DNA of 64,000 nucleotides from Arenicola marina. Its lineage: Eukaryota > Annelida > Polychaeta > Arenicolidae. Below the pieces are notes generated by a model, which saw nothing but the letters and a program-made list of their open reading frames with translations, made no database searches and was not told the DNA's origin. Positions within the stretch are counted from its first letter, which is position 1; each line of letters begins with the position of its first letter. Position numbers and translations under genes: made by a program. Where the stretch lies: positions 1,054,001 to 1,118,000 of the forward strand of contig OZ025249.1 of assembly GCA_964019135.1 (NCBI GenBank), in the 5' to 3' direction. Positions 4,443 through 18,510 of this stretch are shown here, one piece after another.

Positions 4443-4605
4443 TGAATTCAGTGTGGACAGGATTTTCTTGTAGTCTTGACGTATTGTATGTGGTATATTT
4501 ATCAATAACATTAAATACTTAATCTGTCGTTCCATCGTTTTGCCCAAGTACATGGTCCATTGACATACCTACAGATTATGGTGACATATCATGGCGGGGC
4601 ACCTT
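4443..4605. other. Short unique spacer
   Basis: Unique AT-rich sequence between two arrays; no exon recognised on either strand. Confidence 0.6.
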
Positions 4606-7275: not shown

Positions 7276-10200
7276 GTCTGTTACTTGTCACGTCGCGTGT
7301 AGCAATCCCTCACTGCGTGTTGAGGAATGTCAATAATAACTAAAGTCTAGTGGTTGTGAACCTTCAATGTTTAATGGTCATTTAATTGGCAATTAATGTT
7401 TAATTGTCAACATTTCAACTATAGTTTTTTTGGAAACACGAACAGTCTCAATGCCCGATGGCATCCCTTTCAGGAGAACCTCAGAAAAGGAATGATGTTT
7501 AAATAAAAAATAAAAAAAGTAAAAAAAAGTCTCAATGAGTTTATAGTCTATGTTTGACCTCCTCATGACATGTTCACCACTATATGAGGAGGTCATTGAG
7601 CAGATCTCATGATTCGCCGAACAGTTGATGTCATGTTTGGCTGTAATTACTTTTATTTGTCAGAGCGCATGGAGGACATTGTGGCGGGCCTGATGGGCCC
7701 CCCTGGACCGCCGGGAGAGGGGAGACCCGGCCACCAGGGCGCACGCGGACCCCAGGGTATCCCAGGTAAGGTGGCCGCAGGGTATCCCAGGTAAGGCGGC
7801 ACGGGGCATCCCAGGTAAGGCGGCCCCAAGGCATCCTAGGTAAGGCGGCCCCAGGGTATCCTAGGTAAGGCGGACCCAGGCCATCCCAGGTAAGGTGGCC
7901 GCAGGGTATCCCAGGTAAGGCGGCCCCAGGGCATCCTAGGTAAGGCGGCCCCAAGGCATCCCAGGTAAGGCGGCCCCAGGGTATCCTAGGTAAGGCGGAC
8001 CCAGGCCACCCCAGGTAAGGCGGCCCCAGGGTATCCTAGGTAAGGCGGACCCAGGCCATCCCAGGTAAGGTGGCCGCAGGGTATCCCAGGTAAGGCGGCC
8101 CCAGGGCATCCTAGGTAAGGCGGCCCCAAGGCATCCCAGGTAAGGCGGCCCCAGGGTATCCTAGGTAAGGCGGACCCAGGCCATCCCAGGTAAGGCAGCC
8201 CCAGGGTATCCCAGGTAAGGCAGCCCCAGGGCATCCCAGGTAAGGCGGCCCCAGGGCATCCCAGGTAAGGCGGCCCCAAGGCATCCTAGGTAAGGCGGCC
8301 CCAGGGTATCCTAGATAAGGCGGACCCAGGCCATCCCAGGTAAGGCGGACCCAGGCCATCCCAGGTAAGGTGGCCGCAGGCTATCCCATGTAAGGTGGCC
8401 GCAGGGTATCCCAGGTAAGGCGGCCCCAGGGCATTCGAGGTAAGGCGGCCCCAGGGTATCCTAGGTAAGGCGGACCCAGACCATCCCAGGTAAGGTGGCC
8501 GCACGGTATCCCAGGTAAGGCGGCCCCAGGGCATCCCAGGTAAGGCGGCCCCAAGGCATCCCAGGTAAGGCGGCCCAGGGTATCCCAGATAAGGCGGCCC
8601 CAGGGTATCCCAGGTAAGGCGGCCCCAGGGCATCCCAGGTAAGGCGGCCCCAGGGCATCCCAGATAAGGCGGCCCCAGGTATCCTAGATAAGGCGGCCCC
8701 AAACTATCTCAGATAAGGCGGCCCCAGGGCATCCCAGGTAAGGCGGCCCCAGGTATCCTAGATAAGGCGGCCCCAGGTAAATCAGATAAGGCGGCCCCAG
8801 GGTATCCAAGGTAAGGCGGCCCCAGGCTATCCAAGGTAAGGCGGCCCCAGGGTATCCAAGGTAAGGCGGCCCCAGGTATTCTAGATAAGGCGACCCCAGG
8901 TAAATCAGGTAAGGCGGCCCCAGGGTATCCCAGGTAAGGCGGCCCCAGGTATTCTAGATAAGGCGACCCCAGGTAAATCAGTTAAGGCGGCCCCAGGTAT
9001 TCTAGATAAGGCGACCCCAGGTAAATCAGGTAAGGCGGCCCCAGGGTATCCAAGGTAAGGCGGCCCCAGGGTGTCCCAGGAAAGGCGGCCCCAGGGTATC
9101 CAAGGTAAGGCGGCTCTAGGGTATCCCAGGTAAGGCGGCCCCAGCGTATCCAAGGTAAGGCGGCCCCTAGGTATCCTAGATAAGGCGGCCCCAGGGTATC
9201 CTAGGTAAGGCGGACCCAGGCCATCCCAGGTAAGGTGGCCGCAGGGTATCCCAGGTAAGGCGGCCCCAGGGTATCCCAGGTAAGGCGGCCCCAGGGCATC
9301 CCAGGTAAGGCGGCCCCAGGTATTCTAGATAAGGCGGCCCCAAGCCATCTCAGATAAGGCGGCCCCAGGGCATCCCAGGTAAGGCGGCCCCAGGTATCCT
9401 AGATAAGGCGGCCCCAGGTAAATCAGATAAGGCGGCCCCAGGGTATCCCAGATAAGGCGGCCCCAGGTTATCCCAGGTAAGGCGGTCTCAGGGTATCCAA
9501 GGTAAGACGGTCCCAGGTAAATCAGGTAAAGCGGCCCCAGGCTGTCCCAGGAAAGGCGGCCCCAGAGTATCCAAGGTAAGGCGGCCCTAGGGTATCCCAG
9601 GTAAGGCGGCCCCAGCGTATCCAAGGTAAGGCGGCCCCCAGGTATCCTAGATAAGGCGGCCCCAGGTAAATCAGGTAAGGCGGCCCCAGGGTATCCCAGG
9701 AAAGGCGGCCCCAGGGTATCCAAGGTAAGGCGGCCCCAGGTATCCTAGATAAGGCGGCCCCAAGGTATCCCAGGTAAGGCGGCCCCAGGGTATCCCAGGT
9801 AAGGCGGCCCCAGGGTATCCCAGGAAAGGCTGCCCCAGGGTATCCAAGGTAAGGCGGCCCCAGGTAAATCAGGTGAGGCGGCCCCAGCGTATCCCAGGAA
9901 AGGCGGCCCCAGGGTATCCAAGGTAAGGCGGCCCCAGGTAAATCAGGTAAGGCGGCCCCAGGGTATCCCAGGAAAGGCGGCCCCAGGGTATCCAAGGTAA
10001 GGCGGCCCCAGGTATCCTAGATAAGGCGGCCCCAAGGTATCCCAGGTAAGGCGGCCCCAAGGTATCCCAGGTAAGGCGGCCCCAGGGTATCCCAGGTAAG
10101 GCGGCCCCAGGGTATCCCAGGAAAGGCTGCCCCAGGGTATCCAAGGTAAGGCGGCCCCAGGTAAATCAGGTAAGGCGGCCCCAGGGTATCCCAGGAAAGG

Positions 10201-13200
10201 CGGCCCCAGGGTATCCAAGGTAAGGCGGCCCCAGGTATCCTAGATAAGGCGGCCCCAAGGTATCCCAGGTAAGGCGGCCCCAAGGTATCCCAGGTAAGGC
10301 GGCCCCAGGGTATCCCAGGTAAGGCGGCCCCAGGGTATCCCAGGTAAGGCTGCCCCAGGGTATCCAAGGTAAGGCGGCCCCAGGTAAATCAGGTGAGGCG
10401 GCCCCAGCGTATCCCAGGTAAAGCGGCCCCAGGGTATCCAAGAAAAGGCGGCCCCAGGGTATCCAAGGCAAGGCGGCCCCAGTGTATCCCAGGAAAAGCG
10501 GCCCCAGGGTATCCAAGGTAAGGCGGCCCCAGGGTATCCAAGGTAAGGCGGCCCTAGGGTATCCAAGGTAAGGCGGCCCCAGCGTATCCAAGGTAAGGCG
10601 GCCCCAGGTAAATCAGGTAAGGCTGCCCCAGGGTATCACAGGTAAGGCGGCCCCAGGGTATCCCAGGAAAGGCGGCCCCAGGGTATCCAAGGTAATGCGG
10701 CCCCAGGTATCTTAGATAAGGCGGTCCCAGGTAAATCAGGTAAGGCGGCCCCAGGGTATCCCAGGTAAGCCGGCCCCAGGGTATCCCAGGTAAGGCGGCC
10801 CCATGTATCCTAGGTAAGGCCGCCCCAGGTATCCTAGGTAAGGCGGCCCCAGGTTTCCTAGATAAGGCGGTCCTAGGGTATCCCAGGTAAGGCAGACCCA
10901 GGGCATCCCAGGTAAGGCAAACCCAGGGTATCCCAGGTAAGGCGGCCCCATGTATCCTAGGTAAGGCCGCCCCAGGTATCCTAGGTAAGGCGGCCCCAGG
11001 TTTCCTAGATAAGGCGGTCCTAGGGTATCCCAGGTAAGGCAGACCCAGGGCATCCCAGGTAAGGCAAACCCAGGGTATCCCAGGTAAGGCGGCCCCAGGC
11101 CATCTTATGTAAGGCGGCCCCAGGGCATCCCAGGTAAGGCAGACCCAGGGTATCCCAGGTAAGGCAGACCCAGGGTATCCCAGGTAAGGCGGCCCAGGCC
11201 ATCTTATGTAAGGCGGCCCCAGGGCATCCCAGGTAAGGCAGACCCAGGGTATCCCAGGTAAGGCGGCCCAGGCCATCTTATGTAAGGCGGCCCCAGGGCA
11301 TCCCAGGTAAGGCAGACCCAGGGTATCCCAGGTAAGGCAAACCCAGGGTATCCCAGGTAAGGCAGACCCAGGGTATCCCAGGTAAGGCGGCCCAGGCCAT
11401 CTTATGTAAGGCGGCCCCAGGGCATCCCAGGTAAGGCAGACCCAGGGTATCCCAGGTAAGGCGGCCCAGGCCATCTTATGTAAGGCGGCCCCAGGGCATC
11501 CCAGGTAAGGCAGACCCAGGGTATCCCAGGTAAGGCGGCCCAGGCCATCTTATGTAAGGCGGCCCCAGGGCATCCCAGGTAAGGCAGACCCAGGGTATCC
11601 CAGGTAAGGCGGCCCAGGCCATCTTATGTAAGGCGGCCCCAGGACATCCCAGGTAAGGGAGAACTAGGGCATCCCAGGGAAGACCCAGGCCAGGTAAAAG
11701 AGTAAAATCCATTGGTGACGTCACTCCATTCTTCCCTCAAGACATTATTTTTCTGTAATGTAGTGTCTTTCAGTCATAAAAGACGTGGATTTTACATAAT
11801 TTAAAGTCCTCGGAAAGTGACATTACCAGATAACAATTGGTCCTTGGGCTTCGCCTTCGATTTTTTATCCCGTAGTGTCGTGTACACTTAAAGAAATGTG
11901 TGACGTCACGCCTTTGTGACGTCACAAAGTCACAAGACGGGGGGACCGTCATGCTGTTTCTACTCAAGGTGTCACATGTGTTTAATGGTGCATGATATAT
12001 GACATTGGCGGTGCCTTAGTTGATCGGTCATTCTTTCATTTTAAAGCCAACGCTTTATTTCCCTATTTCTCACTCACTTATTAGTCTCGCAGTGCAATTA
12101 GTACAATAGTCGATTCGCTGTTATCGCTCTGTTGCTGAACCGTCGACAAATTGAGATTGCCTTGTAGTCGGCTGGATGTAGGGCTGAGTGCACGTCACGC
12201 ATTGGGCTGTCTGTAGCCGGCTGGATGTAGGGCTGAGTGCATGTCACGCATTGGGCTCTCTGTAGCCGGCTGGATGTAGGGCTGAGTGCACGTCACGCAT
12301 TGGGCTGTCTGTAGCCGACTGGATGTAGGGCTGAGTGCACGTCACGCATTGGGCTGTCTGTTAACGGCTGGATGTAGGGCTGACTGCACGTCACGCAGTG
12401 GGCTGTCTGTAGCCGTCTGGATGTAGGGCTGAGTGCACGTCACGCATTGGGCTGTCTGTAGCCGGCTGGATGTAGGGCTGAGTGCACGTCACGCATTGGG
12501 CTGTCTGTAGCCGGCTGGATGTAGGGCTGAGTGCACGTCACGCATTGGGCTGTCTGTAGCCGGCTGGATGTAGGGCTGAGTGCACGTCACGCATTGGGCT
12601 GTCTGTAGCCGGCTGGATGTAGGGCTGAGTGCACGTCACGCATTGGGCTGTCTGTAGCCGGCTGGATTTAGGGCCGAGTGCACGTCACGCATTGGGCTGT
12701 CTGTAGCCGGCTGGATGTTGGGCTGAGTGCGCGTCACGCATTGGGCTGTCTGTAGCCGGCTGGATGTAGGGCTGAGTGCGCGTCACGCATTGGGCTGTCT
12801 GTAGCCGGCTGGATGTAGGGCTGAGTGCACGTCACGCATTGGGCTGTCTGTAGCTGGCTGGATGTATGGCTGAGTGCATGTCACGCATTGGGCTGTCTGT
12901 AGCCTGCTTGATGTTGGGCTGAGTGCACGTCACGCATTGGGCTGTCTGTAGCCGGCTGGATGTAGGGCTGAGTGCACGTCACGCATTGGGTTGTCTGTAG
13001 CCGGCTGGATGTAGGGCTGAGTGCGCGTCACGCATTGGGCTGTCTGTAGCCGGCTGGATGTAGGGCTGAGTGCACGTCACGCATTGGGCTGTCTGTAGCC
13101 GGCTGGTTGTAGGGCTGAGTGCGCGTCACGCATTGGGCTGTCTGTAGCCGGCTGGATGTAGGGCTAAGCGCACGTCACGCATTGGGCTGTCTTTAGCCGG

Positions 13201-16200
13201 CTGGATGTAGGGCTGAGTGCACGTCACGCATTGGGCTGTCTGTAGCCGGCTGGATGTAGGGCTGAGTGCACGTCACGCATTGGGCTGTCTGTAGCCGGCT
13301 GGATGTAGGGCTGAGTGCACGTCACGCATTGGGCTGTCTGTAGCCGGCTGGATGTAGGGCTGAGTGCACGTCACGCATTGGGCTGTCTGTAGCCGGCTGG
13401 ATGTAGGGCTGAGTGCACGTCACGCATTGGGCTGTCTGTAGCCGGCTGGATGTAGGGCTGAGTGCACGTCACGCATTGGGCTGTCTGTAGCCGGCTGGAT
13501 GTAGGGCTGAGTGCACGTCACGCATTGGGCTGTCTGTAGCCGGCTGGATGTAGGGCTGAGTGCACGTCACGCATTGGGCTGTCTGTAGCCGGCTGGATTT
13601 AGGGCCGAGTGCACGTCACGCATTGGGCTGTCTGTAGCCGGCTGGATGTTGGGCTGAGTGCGCGTCACGCATTGGGCTGTCTGTAGCCGGCTGGATGTAG
13701 GGCTGAGTGCGCGTCACGCATTGGGCTGTTTGTAGCCGGCTGGATGTAGGGCTGAGTGCACGTCACGCTTTGGGCTGTCTGTAGCCGGCTGTCTGTAGGG
13801 CTGAGTGCACGTCACGCATTGGGCTGTCTGTAGCCGGCTGGATGTAGGGCTGAGTGCACGTCACGCATTGGGCTGTCTGTAGCTGGCTGGATGTATGGCT
13901 GAGTGCATGTCACGCATTGGGCTGTCTGTAGCCTGCTTGATGTTGGGCTGAGTGCACGTCACGCATTGGGCTGTCTGTAGCCGGCTGGATGTAGGGCTGA
14001 GTGCACGTCACGCATTGGGCTGTCTGTAGCCGGCTGGATGTAGGGCTGAGTGCACGTCACGCATTGGGCTGTCTGTAGCCGGCTGGATGTAGGGCTGAGT
14101 GCACGTCACGCATTGGGCTGTCTGTAGCCGGCTGGATGTAGGGCTGAGTGCACGTCACGCATTGGGCTGTCTGTAGCCGGCTGGATGTAGGGCTGAGTGC
14201 ACGTCACGCATTGGGCTGTCTGTAGCCGGCTGGATTTAGGGCCGAGTGCACGTCACGCATTAGGCTGTCTGTAGCCGGCTGGATGTTGGGCTGAGTGCGC
14301 GTCACGCATTGGGCTGTCTGTAGCCGGCTGGATGTAGGGCTGAGTGCGCGTCACGCATTGGGCTGTTTGTAGCCGGCTGGATGTAGGGCTGAGTGCACGT
14401 CACGCTTTGGGCTGTCTGTAGCCGGCTGTCTGTAGGGCTGAGTGCACGTCACGCATTGGGCTGTCTGTAGCCGGCTGGATGTAGGGCTGAGTGCACGTCA
14501 CGCATTGGGCTGTCTGTAGCCGGCTGGATGTAGGGCTGAGTGCACGTCACGCATTGGGCTGTCTGTAGCCGGCTGGATGTAGGGCTGAGTGCACGTCACG
14601 CATTGGGCTGTCTGTAGCCGGCTGGATGTAGGGCTGAGTGCACGTCACGCATTGGGCTGTCTGTAGCCGGCTGGATGTAGGGCTGAGTGCACGTCACGCA
14701 TTGGGCTGTCTGTAGCCGGCTGGATGTAGGGCTGAGTGCACGTCACGCATTGGGCTGTCTGTAGCCGGCTGGATGTAGGGCTGAGTGCACGTCACGCATT
14801 GGGCTGTCTGTAGCCGGCTGGATTTAGGGCCGCGTGCACGTCACGCATTGGGCTGTCTGTAGCCGGCTGGATGTTGGGCTGAGTGCGCGTCACGCATTGG
14901 GCTGTCTGTAGCCGGCTGGATGTAGGGCTGAGTGCGCGTCACGCATTGGGCTGTTTGTAGCCGGCTGGATGTAGGGCTGAGTGCACGTCACGCTTTGGGC
15001 TGTCTGTAGCCGGCTGTCTGTAGGGCTGAGTGCACGTCACGCATTGGGCTGTCTGTAGCCGGCTGGATGTAGGGCTGAGTGCACGTCACGCATTGGGCTG
15101 TCTGTAGCTGGCTGGATGTATGGCTGAGTGCATGTCACGCATTGGGCTGTCTGTAGCCTGCTTGATGTTGGGCTGAGTGCACGTCACGCATTGGGCTGTC
15201 TGTAGCCGGCTGGATGTAGGGCTGAGTGCACGTCACGCATTGGGTTGTCTGTAGCCGGCTGGATGTAGGGCTGAGTGCGCGTCACGCATTGGGCTGTCTG
15301 TAGCCGGCTGGATGTAGGGCTGAGTGCACGTCACGCATTGGGCTGTCTGTAGCCGGCTGGATGTAGGGCTGAGTGCGCGTCACGCATTGGGCTGTCTGTA
15401 GCCGGCTGGATGTAGGGCTAAGCGCACGTCACGCATTGGGCTGTCTTTAGCCGGCTGGATGTAGGGCTGAGTGCACGTCACGCAATGGGCTGTCTGTAGC
15501 CGGCTGGATGTAGGGCTGAGTGCACGTCACGCATTGGGCTGTCTGTAGCCGGCTGTCTGTAGGGCTGAGTGCACGTCACGCATTGGGCTGTCTGTAGCCG
15601 GCTGGATGTAGGGCTGAGTGCACGTCACGCATTGGGCTGTCTGTAGCCGGCTGGATGTAGGGCTGAGTGCACGTCACGCATTGGGCTGTCTGTAGCCGGC
15701 TGGATGTAGGGCTGAGTGCACGTCACGCATTGGGCTGTCTGTAGCCGGCTGGATGTAGGGCTGAGTGCACGTCACGCATTGGGCTGTCTGTAGCCGGCTG
15801 GATTTAGGGCTGAGTGCACGTCACGCATTGGGCTGTCTGTAGCCGGCTGGATGTAGGGCTGAGTGCGCGTCACGCATTGGGCTGTCTGTAGCCGGCTGGA
15901 TGTAGGGCTGAGTGCACGTCACGCATTGGGCTGTCTGTAGCCGGCTGGATGTAGGGCTGAGTGCACGTCACGCATTGGGCTGTCTGTAGCCGGCTGGATG
16001 TAGGGCTGAGTGCACGTCACGCATTGGGCTGTCTGTAGCCGGCTGGATGTAGGGTTGAGTGCACGTCACACATTGGGCTGTCTGTAGCCGGCTGGATGTA
16101 GGGCTGAGTGCACGTCACGCATTGGGCTGTCTGTAGCCGGCTGGATGTAGGGCTGAGTGCACGTCACGCATTGGGCTGTCTGTAGCCGGCTGGATGTAGG

Positions 16201-18510
16201 GCTGAGTGCACGTCACACATTGGGCTGTCTGTAGCCGGCTGGATGTTGGGCTGAGTGCACGTCACACATTGGGCTGTCTGTAGCCGGCTGGATGAAGGGT
16301 TGAGTGCACGTCACACATTGGGCTGTCTGTAGCCGCTTGTCCTTATGAGTGTTGTATGTTACAGGTGACCAGGGCCCCGCCGGCCTGCCTGGAGACCGGG
16401 GATACGTGGGACTGCCCGGTATGCCGGGACCCTCCGGACCGCCAGGCAGGCAAGGTAACCCACCTCTAGCCTCCAGCAAGTCATGTATACCACGTTTTAA
16501 CAGAAATACCGTTAGCGTCACGTGACGAAGACCCTGTCTGTTACGGACCGTGTTCACACACAAGAACCCCAAGCGCCCGAGGAGAGCGGAGGGGGTTCCC
16601 CTTTCTTTTCTTTTTTTACGTTCAAATAGATTCTTAACCAATGTATTAAACTGACTAATGTGAAGACACTATGCTAAGAACGATCTGTACTTGAACTGCA
16701 TTAGTGACATAGAGCGGAGCACAGACAGACGAGTACTAGAATTTCCTTTTTCTAAAAAAACATAGATTGACACGTAACGCGAAGATTTAAACCTTTCAGT
16801 TCAAAACTGTACACAGAATAATCCCATACAATACCCATTGAGAGAAATGGCGCCCTCTCTCCTTGTTCCGTGTTATAGTAAAATTGGAAATAGTGGAAGT
16901 GTTAATCGGAGTCTCCGAGAAAAGAAAACCCACATGTGGACTGTCAATTTTGCCATACTGATCGTTAAATGGTACTTTTAAAAACACAACATTTCAAACG
17001 GCAAGATCCTAAATCCTGAATTTTGCGCACAATATATTGCAAACAATTATTTATCGAACACTATACTGATCACATCGCTGGCAGTTAGTCGAAATATGAT
17101 GTAATATTTTGCATACGATGTACCGACTGAGCAATTATTACCTATCTCCAGTCTAGTGTGAAGAAATTATCTATATGGAGACTTTTATATTAATGTTACG
17201 TATGCTGTATTGTTCTGTCTCATTGCTGAAGTGTCTGAGTGTCGATGTGATGTCGTTGCCAGGTGAGGTGGGCGAGAAGGGAGACCGTGGCCCGCCTGGA
17301 GTGGGAGCAGAGGGCCCGCGAGGCATCGTGGGACAAGCAGGTACGGTAATCAGCGCCAAGATCTCGTATAGTCTCACACAGATCACGTCGTCCGTGTTCT
17401 GCTAAAGTCCAGCTCCCACGTGCGAAGGGACTTTCATTATATTAATCTCAATATATTAAGATCAGGGGCGGATCTAGGGGGGGGTGTTACCGGGGTTGTA
17501 ACCCCCTCCCCCCTTCCCCCCCCCCCTTTGGGTACCTGAACATACACTGTTAAAAGTCGGCTTCTCCGAGCATCCCCCCTCCTCCGGTCGCAAGTTTTTC
17601 AGAGAGCACACTCCATACCCCCTGTCGGAAGTTTTCAGAAAGCAACCCCCCCCCCCCCTTGGCAAATTCCGAGATTCGCCCCTGAAGATATAATAAAAAT
17701 TAAAATATAATACCCGTTGATTTTATTAGGGAACACTAGTAGACATATTGGCCATGATTCCATATGACACGTTTCGCGACGTGTAGCTCGGTTCCCTGTT
17801 GAAGAGGTCGTGCGCTGTATGCATGAGACAGACGTACTACTTCTCTTGACGTGTATCTCCGTTACAAAACATCGCGGATTAAAACGCTATTCCAGATATT
17901 ATGAACTCAACACATCAACACATACTGGTTGCCTCCTTTCTCAAAAATTCCTCTGAATATTGGCATAAGCCATTCACCTGCCTATATTTAGCAAGTACAC
18001 CGGAACCTACATCTACGTCACTTGACGCGAAAATTACGACTTTGGTCGTTCAAAGCTGATGCCCGAGTCTCACCTGTTTCGTGACTAAAACGTGCCACAT
18101 GCACTCTATGAGCCACATAATTTGCGCAACTACCCAGATTGCTTCAATATTCAATATTTCTCTTCTGTGGGTATATAAGGTTAAGTTTACGAATTAATTT
18201 ACCCAGAAGCTGGCCTTTAATTCCCAGAATAAGACTAAGATAAATAAATAAGGTCACTGCTTCAGAGAACCTTAACCCTGCTGGATATCGCAACATGTCT
18301 GGTGTGTTTTCAGGTCCGGCAGGGCCCCCGGGGGAGGGTCGCCCTGGGCGGCCGGGCGAACGCGGGCCCCTGGGCCGCCCAGGCAACGTAGGACCCCCGG
18401 GCGCACGCGGGCCCCCTGGCCCGACAGGGGACTGCTGCAGTCCAGGAAATAATGTGATAGACTACTTGTCTCGACTGCAGAGAGCCAGGGGTGACGTCAA
18501 GGGGCCTTGA
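7221..18510 (+). CDS. FACIT-like collagen gene, 3' part (joined exons 7221-7275, 7664-7765, 16365-16454, 17263-17340, 18314-18510)
   Basis: Extracellular-matrix collagen chain; only its C-terminal 173 residues are in the window. The five exons have consensus GT-AG borders and all internal junctions are phase 1 (a glycine or glutamate codon split after its first base), so the frame is unbroken to TGA at 18508-18510. In order: a short non-collagenous segment ([20 protein letters not shown]...), then Gly-X-Y repeats, then a 25-residue tail with a Cys pair after the last Gly triplet. There is no fibrillar C-propeptide, no NC1 of the type IV kind and no other C-terminal globular domain, so a non-fibrillar, FACIT-like collagen fits best; the exact type is not assignable. 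Exons upstream of 7221 were not found and may lie before the window. The gene converges on the FAAH-like gene. Confidence 0.85.
7276..7663 (+). other. Collagen intron, 388 nt
   Basis: Unique intron with an A-rich stretch at about 7499-7531 and a terminal TTTTATTTGTCAG. No other feature seen. Confidence 0.65.
7664..7765 (+). CDS. Collagen exon, start of the Gly-X-Y domain
   Basis: A 102-nt exon after TTATTTGTCAG, ending CCCAG|GTAAGG, phase 1 to phase 1. It encodes [11 protein letters not shown] and then [18 protein letters not shown] followed by PQGIPG. The triplets are interrupted once (G-E-G). Its last 15 bases and its donor are the template of the 25-bp array that follows immediately: the array repeats the exon end and the 5' splice site. 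Reading through the first donor meets TAA at 7792-7794, so retention truncates the protein. Confidence 0.9.
7751..11697 (+). repeat. 25-bp array: tandem copies of the collagen exon-2 5' splice site
   Basis: About 155 copies of a 25-bp unit whose core GGTATCCCAG|GTAAGGCGG is the last ten bases of exon 7664-7765 plus its donor. Most copies keep CAG|GTAAGG. Variants include CCTAGATAAGG and CCCAGGAAAGG (donor GT lost), CCAAGGTAAGG, and a 24-bp form. The second donor is at 7791, exactly 25 bases after the first. The array occupies the first 3.9 kb of an 8.6-kb intron. Minus-strand frames through it are an artefact of the period (three units = 25 codons). Confidence 0.95.
11698..12163. other. Unique intron segment between two arrays
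   Basis: Collagen intron sequence separating the 25-bp and 49-bp arrays. It contains three TGACGTCA palindromes (11716, 11901, 11917) and no recognisable exon. Confidence 0.6.
11912..11929. promoter_or_regulatory. Perfect 18-bp palindrome with a CRE core
   Basis: CTTTGTGACGTCACAAAG is its own reverse complement and contains TGACGTCA, the CREB/ATF consensus. Two more TGACGTCA copies lie at 11716-11723 and 11901-11908. Function as an intronic enhancer is only inferred from motif clustering. Confidence 0.3.
12164..16336. repeat. 49-bp minisatellite
   Basis: About 85 copies of a 49-bp unit (core GTAGCCGGCTGGATGTAGGG). Marker variants (GGATTTAGGGCCGAGTG; CCGGCTGTCTGTAGGG; TAGCCTGCTTGATGTTGGG) recur in the same order, showing higher-order blocks. 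The array ends about 28 nt before the collagen acceptor at 16364. Confidence 0.95.
16365..16454 (+). CDS. Collagen exon, Gly-X-Y
   Basis: A 90-nt exon between GTATGTTACAG and CAAG|GTAACC, phase 1 to phase 1, with uninterrupted triplets ([19 protein letters not shown], then [11 protein letters not shown]). The 49-bp minisatellite stops only about 28 bases before the acceptor. The preceding intron is 8.6 kb and almost wholly made of two arrays. Confidence 0.92.
16455..17262 (+). other. Collagen intron, 808 nt
   Basis: Unique intron between two Gly-X-Y exons, with no repeat array and no further exon recognised. Confidence 0.65.
17263..17340 (+). CDS. Collagen exon, Gly-X-Y with one imperfection
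   Basis: A 78-nt exon, GTTGCCAG| to GCAG|GTACGG, phase 1 to phase 1. It encodes [18 protein letters not shown], then PRGIVGQA. The G-V-G step is a one-residue (G1G) triplet interruption. The acceptor's pyrimidine tract is poor, but frame, phase and Gly periodicity leave little doubt. Confidence 0.9.
17341..18313 (+). other. Collagen intron, 973 nt
   Basis: Unique intron carrying one MITE-like insertion (17463-17684); otherwise nothing recognised. Confidence 0.65.
17463..17684. mobile_element. MITE-like DNA transposon remnant, 222 bp
   Basis: Starts CAGGGGCGGATCT and ends AGATTCGCCCCTG, imperfect terminal inverted repeats flanked by AAGAT on both sides (17458-17462 and 17685-17689). No coding capacity; the inside is C-rich with short internal duplications (GTCGCAAGTTTTTCAGA / GTCGGAAGTTTTCAGAA). 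CAGGGGCGGA-type termini are common in hAT-like MITEs, but those usually have 8-bp target duplications, so the superfamily is left open. Confidence 0.7.
18314..18510 (+). CDS. Collagen terminal exon with Cys pair and RGD tail
   Basis: A 197-nt exon after TGTGTTTTCAG, from phase 1 to the TGA stop. Triplets run [17 protein letters not shown], then [18 protein letters not shown] and PTG, followed by the non-collagenous tail [26 protein letters not shown]. The adjacent cysteines directly after the last triplet suggest interchain disulfides at the end of the helix, as in several FACIT collagens (which usually have spaced cysteines, so the match is loose). The tail holds an Arg-Gly-Asp. The exon shares PPGEGRPG with exon 7664-7765. 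A donor before the stop cannot be wholly excluded, but no downstream exon was seen. Confidence 0.88.

Follow-up and report, generated by a model that had tools for sequence, protein, structure and literature searches.

The stretch analysed here (the window) comprises 64,000 nucleotides of contig C2 of the 867-Mb assembly of the polychaete Arenicola marina, C2:1054001-1118000; coordinates without a prefix are window positions. It carries four collagen exons, A to D (Table 1), and a 25-bp minisatellite that begins within exon A, crosses its 5' splice site and continues into the following intron. When joined, exons A-D give an unbroken Gly-X-Y frame followed by a cysteine-containing tail and TGA, a piece of 154 amino acids that is matched by the Pfam family Collagen (PF01391, 1.2e-17). 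The collagen exons found further upstream are 33 to 126 nt long, several of them 54 or 63 nt, and in phase 0, the last one ending at C2:1044022.

Tandem Repeats Finder (TRF) recovered the minisatellite as a single array of period 25 with 158.0 copies (score 5159), and wraparound alignment gave 158 usable units, counting the one in the exon. A preliminary description of the window had placed about 155 copies at 7751-11697; the array stands, with its extent and count adjusted to 7745-11658 and 158. That description had also recognised the unit as the exon end plus CAG/GTAAGG (the slash marks the exon end), but its estimate of about 10-15 exonic bases was too low, the actual share being 21 nt. 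These 21 bases (GCGGACCCCAGGGTATCCCAG, 7745-7765) together with GTAAG align to the 25-bp consensus without a mismatch, leaving one gap of 1 nt. The local score of 45 exceeds the highest value among 2000 single-base shuffles, 27, and the exonic part alone scores 35 against a shuffle maximum of 26. The extra A of the exon copy, which is missing from the unit consensus, belongs to the Gly codon GGA. Since the array begins within exon A, its head-to-tail copies are contiguous with the real boundary. A 25-mer unit has 17 exact matches in the assembly, all of them inside this array.

The donor dinucleotide GT is kept in 122 and lost in 36 of the 158 units. Between 7741 and 11720, 129 sites combine GT with at least seven of nine matches to CAGGTAAGT, and 73 of them read exactly CAGGTAAGG; a long series of competing donors had therefore been correctly described, while 155 near-identical ones were somewhat too many. 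By fifths of the array, with the exon copy excluded, GT is kept in 30/31, 19/31, 19/32, 22/31 and 31/32 units, so that the donors closest to the exon are almost all intact. The true donor at 7766 (CAG/GTAAGG) was confirmed in the sequence, and it alone among the 129 strong donor-like sites preserves Gly-X-Y reading as far as the stop codon; the correct product thus requires the first of the series, as had been proposed. For the other 128, an early stop is predicted 42 codons into the translated stretch. Donor 2 was likewise confirmed at 7791, and its use would end translation at once because a TGA arises from AG/GTGA where it joins the next exon, whereas with donors beyond it translation would run into the TAA at 7792-7794 that had already been pointed out.

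Table 1. Features of the collagen exons, their introns and the donor-linked arrays (unprefixed positions refer to the window)
Feature	Position	Strand	Remarks
Collagen exon A, 102 nt	7664..7765	+	acceptor ...tttatttgtcag/AGCGC; end ATC CCA G, phase 1; Gly-X-Y frame
25-bp minisatellite	7745..11658	+	158 units, the first exonic (7745-7765 + GTAAG); GT in 122/158
True 5' splice site GTAAGG (CAG/GTAAGG), first of the series	7766..7771	+	sole donor of 129 predicted to yield the full collagen tail
Intron A, 8599 nt	7766..16364	+	about 94% arrays (25-bp and 49-bp)
TAA stop	7792..7794	+	reached once the first two donors are bypassed
Second array of intron A, 49-bp unit	12163..16335	+	stops 29 nt short of exon B, not reaching the exon
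Collagen exon B, 90 nt	16365..16454	+	phase 1 to 1
Collagen exon C, 78 nt	17263..17340	+	phase 1 to 1
Last collagen exon D, 197 nt	18314..18510	+	stop TGA 18508-18510
Donor array	C2:994031		46-bp unit, 31 exonic nt
Donor array	C2:1007956		27-bp unit, starts exactly at GT (intron base +1); repeats GTAAG, 0 exonic bases
Donor array	C2:1015314		50-bp unit, 7 exonic nt
Donor array	C2:1038677		50-bp unit, 17 exonic nt

Donor-spanning arrays are not confined to exon A. At the collagen locus an array begins at or inside the exon at five of the 18 donors seen, two of the 18 being known just as a Gly-X-Y block followed by GTN. A chance rate could be estimated for 15 donors of the locus. Here 24 arrays, whose median unit is 33.5 bp, fall on 18,348 unique bases, so that 4.2% of the ancestral bases would be part of a seed. 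Against this expectation arrays were present at 4/15 donors (p=0.003), and at 3/14 when the donor of the window was left out (p=0.019). A 39-bp array before the exon at C2:1038279 was not counted, as it extends to the acceptor without any exonic base in its repeat. At C2:1015314 the true donor, AAG/GTCAGT, appears by eye weaker than the AAG/GTAAGT of the TRF consensus of its copies, so that strength and proximity are opposed there.

Arrays of the CAGGTAAG type were followed in the first 57 Mb of contig C1, where three of the seven among the places listed start exactly at a coding donor, namely those of an ALDH1L1-like, a Prp18-like and a CDC5L-like exon. One of the remaining four was viewed only inside the array, one is ambiguous and in two no exon is apparent. 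Matches to the triple CAGGTAAG (3378, versus 1694 for the reversed pattern) were dropped as proof of enrichment because long arrays inflate such counts. Counted as arrays among the places listed, the type reaches only about 1.6 times the density of reversed-motif arrays (7 in 57 Mb versus 9 in about 120 Mb), a result that speaks against donor arrays as such being strongly enriched across the genome; this weak excess led to an exon-first survey. On C1, splicing-factor genes hold two of the three exon-linked arrays (Prp18-like, L042, C1:23815300-23817500, minus strand; CDC5L-like, L044, C1:54474500-54477000, minus strand). The ALDH1L1-like exon (L010, C1:604515-607600) ends in ..AGWCDKIQ, and its 39-bp donor-spanning unit reads in frame as VSTARPLWCDKIQ; 11 later AGGTAAG donors, all in frame, precede the first in-frame stop, and on conceptual translation a ladder of protein lengths is possible at this locus.

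For the survey, 100 exons were picked by protein family, blind to repeats: 46 of the 49 Cpn60_TCP1 matches listed (three intronless-looking ones were omitted) and the first 54 of the 77 myosin-head matches listed, for which 65 of 168 candidates had been scored. Kinase matches were unsuited, since most of those listed consist of one uninterrupted frame. The weight table used to score donors is a weak point of the survey; eight exons scoring below 4 were excluded, and L087 (a last exon) and L131 among them carry arrays too. Arrays span 15 of the 92 CCT and myosin donors with an acceptable call, and 12 after hand reading, which required the unit to include exonic bases and the array to exceed two copies; L055, which starts exactly at GT, and L141 and L146, which have two copies only, were removed. 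The donor call of L152 is unsure, and its junction was placed one base off in the analysis of unit lengths. The 12 hand-checked arrays have units of 28 to 126 bp with 4 to 81 exonic bases, in each case from their own exon, which indicates independent origins. Spanned and other exons did not differ in G+C content (0.58 and 0.56, p=0.32). The recurrence rate so obtained covers two gene families. The myosin exon L131 (C11:42554674-42555305, minus strand) has a GC-type-looking donor, CCAG/GCAAGT, and unit 2 of its 85-bp array shows GCGAGT.

Acceptors were spanned in 5 of 80 cases, one of them a weak 15-bp match, under a rule demanding five exonic bases, whereas the rule behind 15/92 admits starts at GT. 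With one rule and equal flank lengths the rates were 11/74 for donors and 4/74 for acceptors (p=0.10); a donor bias is thus suggested, not proven. Array starts also crowd around donors, with 28 within 100 nt (-100..+99) versus 6 at +100 to +249 (p=0.004), a count that omits seven starts further upstream and carries some edge bias in the outer bins. Moreover, in eight introns extended to about +1.3 kb four starts fell into the 1198 unique bases lying within 100 nt, compared with two in the 7722 farther out (p=0.004), not counting one start at -273 or the short final bin; these were eight of the first ten survey exons (L057 and L061 were skipped), and their array status was already known when they were picked.

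Two kinds of evidence from the copies bear on a possible disturbance of splicing. Unit length is divisible by three in 7 of 21 arrays, the chance proportion; the period varies in L065, L073 and the CDC5L-like array, and the 27-bp and 46-bp collagen arrays are outside this set. Divergence of the copies from their own consensus was measured on substitutions only, with homopolymers masked, in the 12 comparable arrays among 16 analysed. The donor 9-mer was less diverged than the intronic remainder in ten arrays, more so in one and equal in one (Wilcoxon p=0.011, one of three tests, uncorrected). Neither exonic versus intronic parts (lower in six, higher in three, p=0.52) nor the 5' site versus the exonic part (p=0.29) differed. 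An earlier result by column identity (exonic 0.97, GT 0.98, intronic 0.84) was discarded, as it counted homopolymer gaps and used the first unit as reference; its exonic excess was lost in the repeated analysis with p=0.52. The copies thus show no sign that competing donors have been purged, and together with the chance-level share of frame-neutral units this fits copies that are unseen by the mature mRNA.

The surroundings are extremely rich in repeats, with TRF arrays covering 53,316 of the 64,000 bases of the window and 98,933 of the 124,000 bases of C2:994001-1118000. Among them are a 54-bp array of about 13 kb and about 240 copies, from C2:1045433 to window position 4443, and a 35-bp array at 28730-48993 (20 kb, about 575 copies), whose open frames of up to 2165 codons are most likely not genes. 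The mitochondrial cox1 of the assembly, open in the invertebrate code, has its best match in Pilargis wolfi (Annelida, 91% identity), with other annelids next, and by itself this marker pointed to an annelid, probably of the Phyllodocida. Amphioxus, the taxon of the mirage minisatellites discussed below, was ruled out as the host by this annelid-like cox1. Contigs C330, C443, C465, C504 and C652 and others, all small, encode kinase domains with in-frame TAG and TAA, which suggests a cobiont or contaminant with a ciliate code in the assembly. Between about 14 and 57 Mb of C3, the kinase matches listed include a cluster of dozens of kinase-like genes, each a single frame of about 280-380 codons.

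The exon A array is probably the outcome of neutral tandem growth from a duplication that crossed the junction; it would be tolerated since, under exon definition, the acceptor is paired with whichever donor lies nearest. The stretch duplicated in tandem would have measured about 25 bp and comprised the last 20-21 exonic and the first five intronic bases, and the array would then have expanded into the intron through slippage or unequal exchange. The exon copy would be fixed by coding constraint and would therefore stay the first unit. Donor 7766 is most likely still the one used by the spliceosome, since with an intron of 8.6 kb and an exon of 102 nt the donor should be chosen across the exon, where the first donor is nearest to the acceptor; where introns are large, according to excerpts of Carranza 2022 (PMC9225289), preference goes to the splice sites with the shortest distance across the exon. 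Later copies would then be invisible to the mRNA and hence drift. A serious splicing problem is weighed against by the intact donors near the exon, by the lack of an excess of frame-neutral units, and by the presence of such arrays in CCT, myosin, Prp18-like, CDC5L-like and ALDH1L1-like exons.

Several points speak against this explanation. The evidence here comes from genome sequence, and the exon-definition rule was taken from other animals. Later donors can be active, since human IFI6 employs donors of downstream repeats according to excerpts of PMC4526556. Finally, exon A starts in phase 1 and is thus at odds with the phase 0 of the last upstream exon found; either an exon is absent from the gene model or A-D constitute a separate collagen gene.

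Among the other explanations, it is possible, although we consider it unlikely, that donors are not special at all and that in a genome so rich in minisatellites some arrays must hit exon ends. The TRF coverage of the locus, the 1.6-fold density and the comparison of donors with acceptors would all be in line with this, but the crowding of array starts near donors in both counts is not, nor is the frequency of donor arrays at the collagen locus, with or without the donor of the window. Heterogeneous splicing, in which some transcripts would use donors 2, 3 and so on, meet the early stop and be degraded, so that array length would lower or tune collagen output, is rather improbable. The early stops predicted for 128 of 129 strong donors would supply the means, the donors near the exon are intact (GT in 30 of the first 31 copies), and repeat donors do function in IFI6 according to the same excerpts. 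However, CCT, myosin, Prp18-like and CDC5L-like exons are arrayed as well, where heavy loss should be costly, and frame-neutral units are not in excess.

It is still more doubtful that the copies form a platform for the U1 small nuclear ribonucleoprotein (snRNP) that aids the intron, for instance by preventing premature cleavage and polyadenylation within so long a stretch filled with repeats. The slightly lower divergence of the donor 9-mers in 10 of 12 arrays would agree with such a role, but the two other divergence tests found the compared parts alike, and GT is lost in 36 of the 158 units of the exon A array. An assembly artefact, conceivable given that long arrays are difficult to assemble, is hardly credible in view of the ordered patterns of unit differences, the fact that every array carries the sequence of its own exon, and the arrays of just 3 to 13 copies that start in ordinary coding exons. 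Beyond neutral growth at single exons, a wider proposal can be offered only tentatively: 5' splice sites could be hot spots of minisatellite birth, with about one donor in six to eight arrayed and acceptors less often, so that by extrapolation thousands of introns would hold from several to more than 100 competing donors under a strict choice of the one nearest to the acceptor, and the copies may be weakly selected U1 platforms.

The choice between identical 5' splice sites has been studied mostly in minigenes and in databases of alternative sites. This genome appears to offer many natural constructs, with from a few to 158 donor copies at fixed spacing, some of them in essential genes. Such arrays are natural tests of splice-site choice, covering the fidelity of nearest-across-exon selection, the reach of the exon window and the cost of array length, and they are also raw material for exon extension and intron change.

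Judged by its sequence, the exon A array is a boundary-spanning ("mirage") minisatellite of a kind already described: its unit unites exonic and intronic sequence of one boundary (21 exonic nt plus GTAAG), and splice signals persist in many copies. The preliminary interpretation is partly supported, having overlooked both the recurrence within the same locus and the existence of this class. According to excerpts of the amphioxus reports, mirage minisatellites occur in Adh3, the globins BflGb6 and BflGb9 and TnC, with similar repeats in PGBD5, and reportedly do not interfere with splicing (PMC3087553, PMC3902484). As in A. marina, a tandem segment crosses the boundary and AG/GT recurs in many copies, on the donor or the acceptor side in the amphioxus cases. 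The annelid differs in its host, which is no cephalochordate, in having arrays at many donors of one genome, and in copy number, with 158 copies over 3.9 kb against the three and six repeats given for the two BflGb6 haplotypes in those excerpts.

The human IFI6 (6-16) minisatellite has multiple splice donors (Turri 1995, cited in PMC4526556), and in the excerpted account two downstream repeat units serve as donors and give rise to isoforms (PMC4526556). It likewise lies at an exon end with units that offer donors; unlike those isoform donors, each later strong donor of exon A would lead to an early stop, and several donors giving full-length, in-frame isoforms were not found among the 129 sites, 128 being predicted to end early. 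The case excerpted from PMC4974935 shares a boundary-crossing duplication that carries splicing signals, but there one duplication created a new intron, whereas here many copies lie within an existing one. Searches of the open-licence literature found no report of boundary-spanning arrays in annelids or polychaetes, while the wider theme yielded work on amphioxus, IFI6 and potato; the nearest annelid case is that of the earthworm metallothionein genes, also annelid and with large blocks of minisatellites in their introns (PMC12783039), which the excerpt reports as intronic, with no boundary-spanning unit in the repeats it describes. Within the literature searched, novelty lies in the taxon, in the number of copies and in the rate of recurrence, and mirage minisatellites are extended from amphioxus to an annelid with a measured rate.

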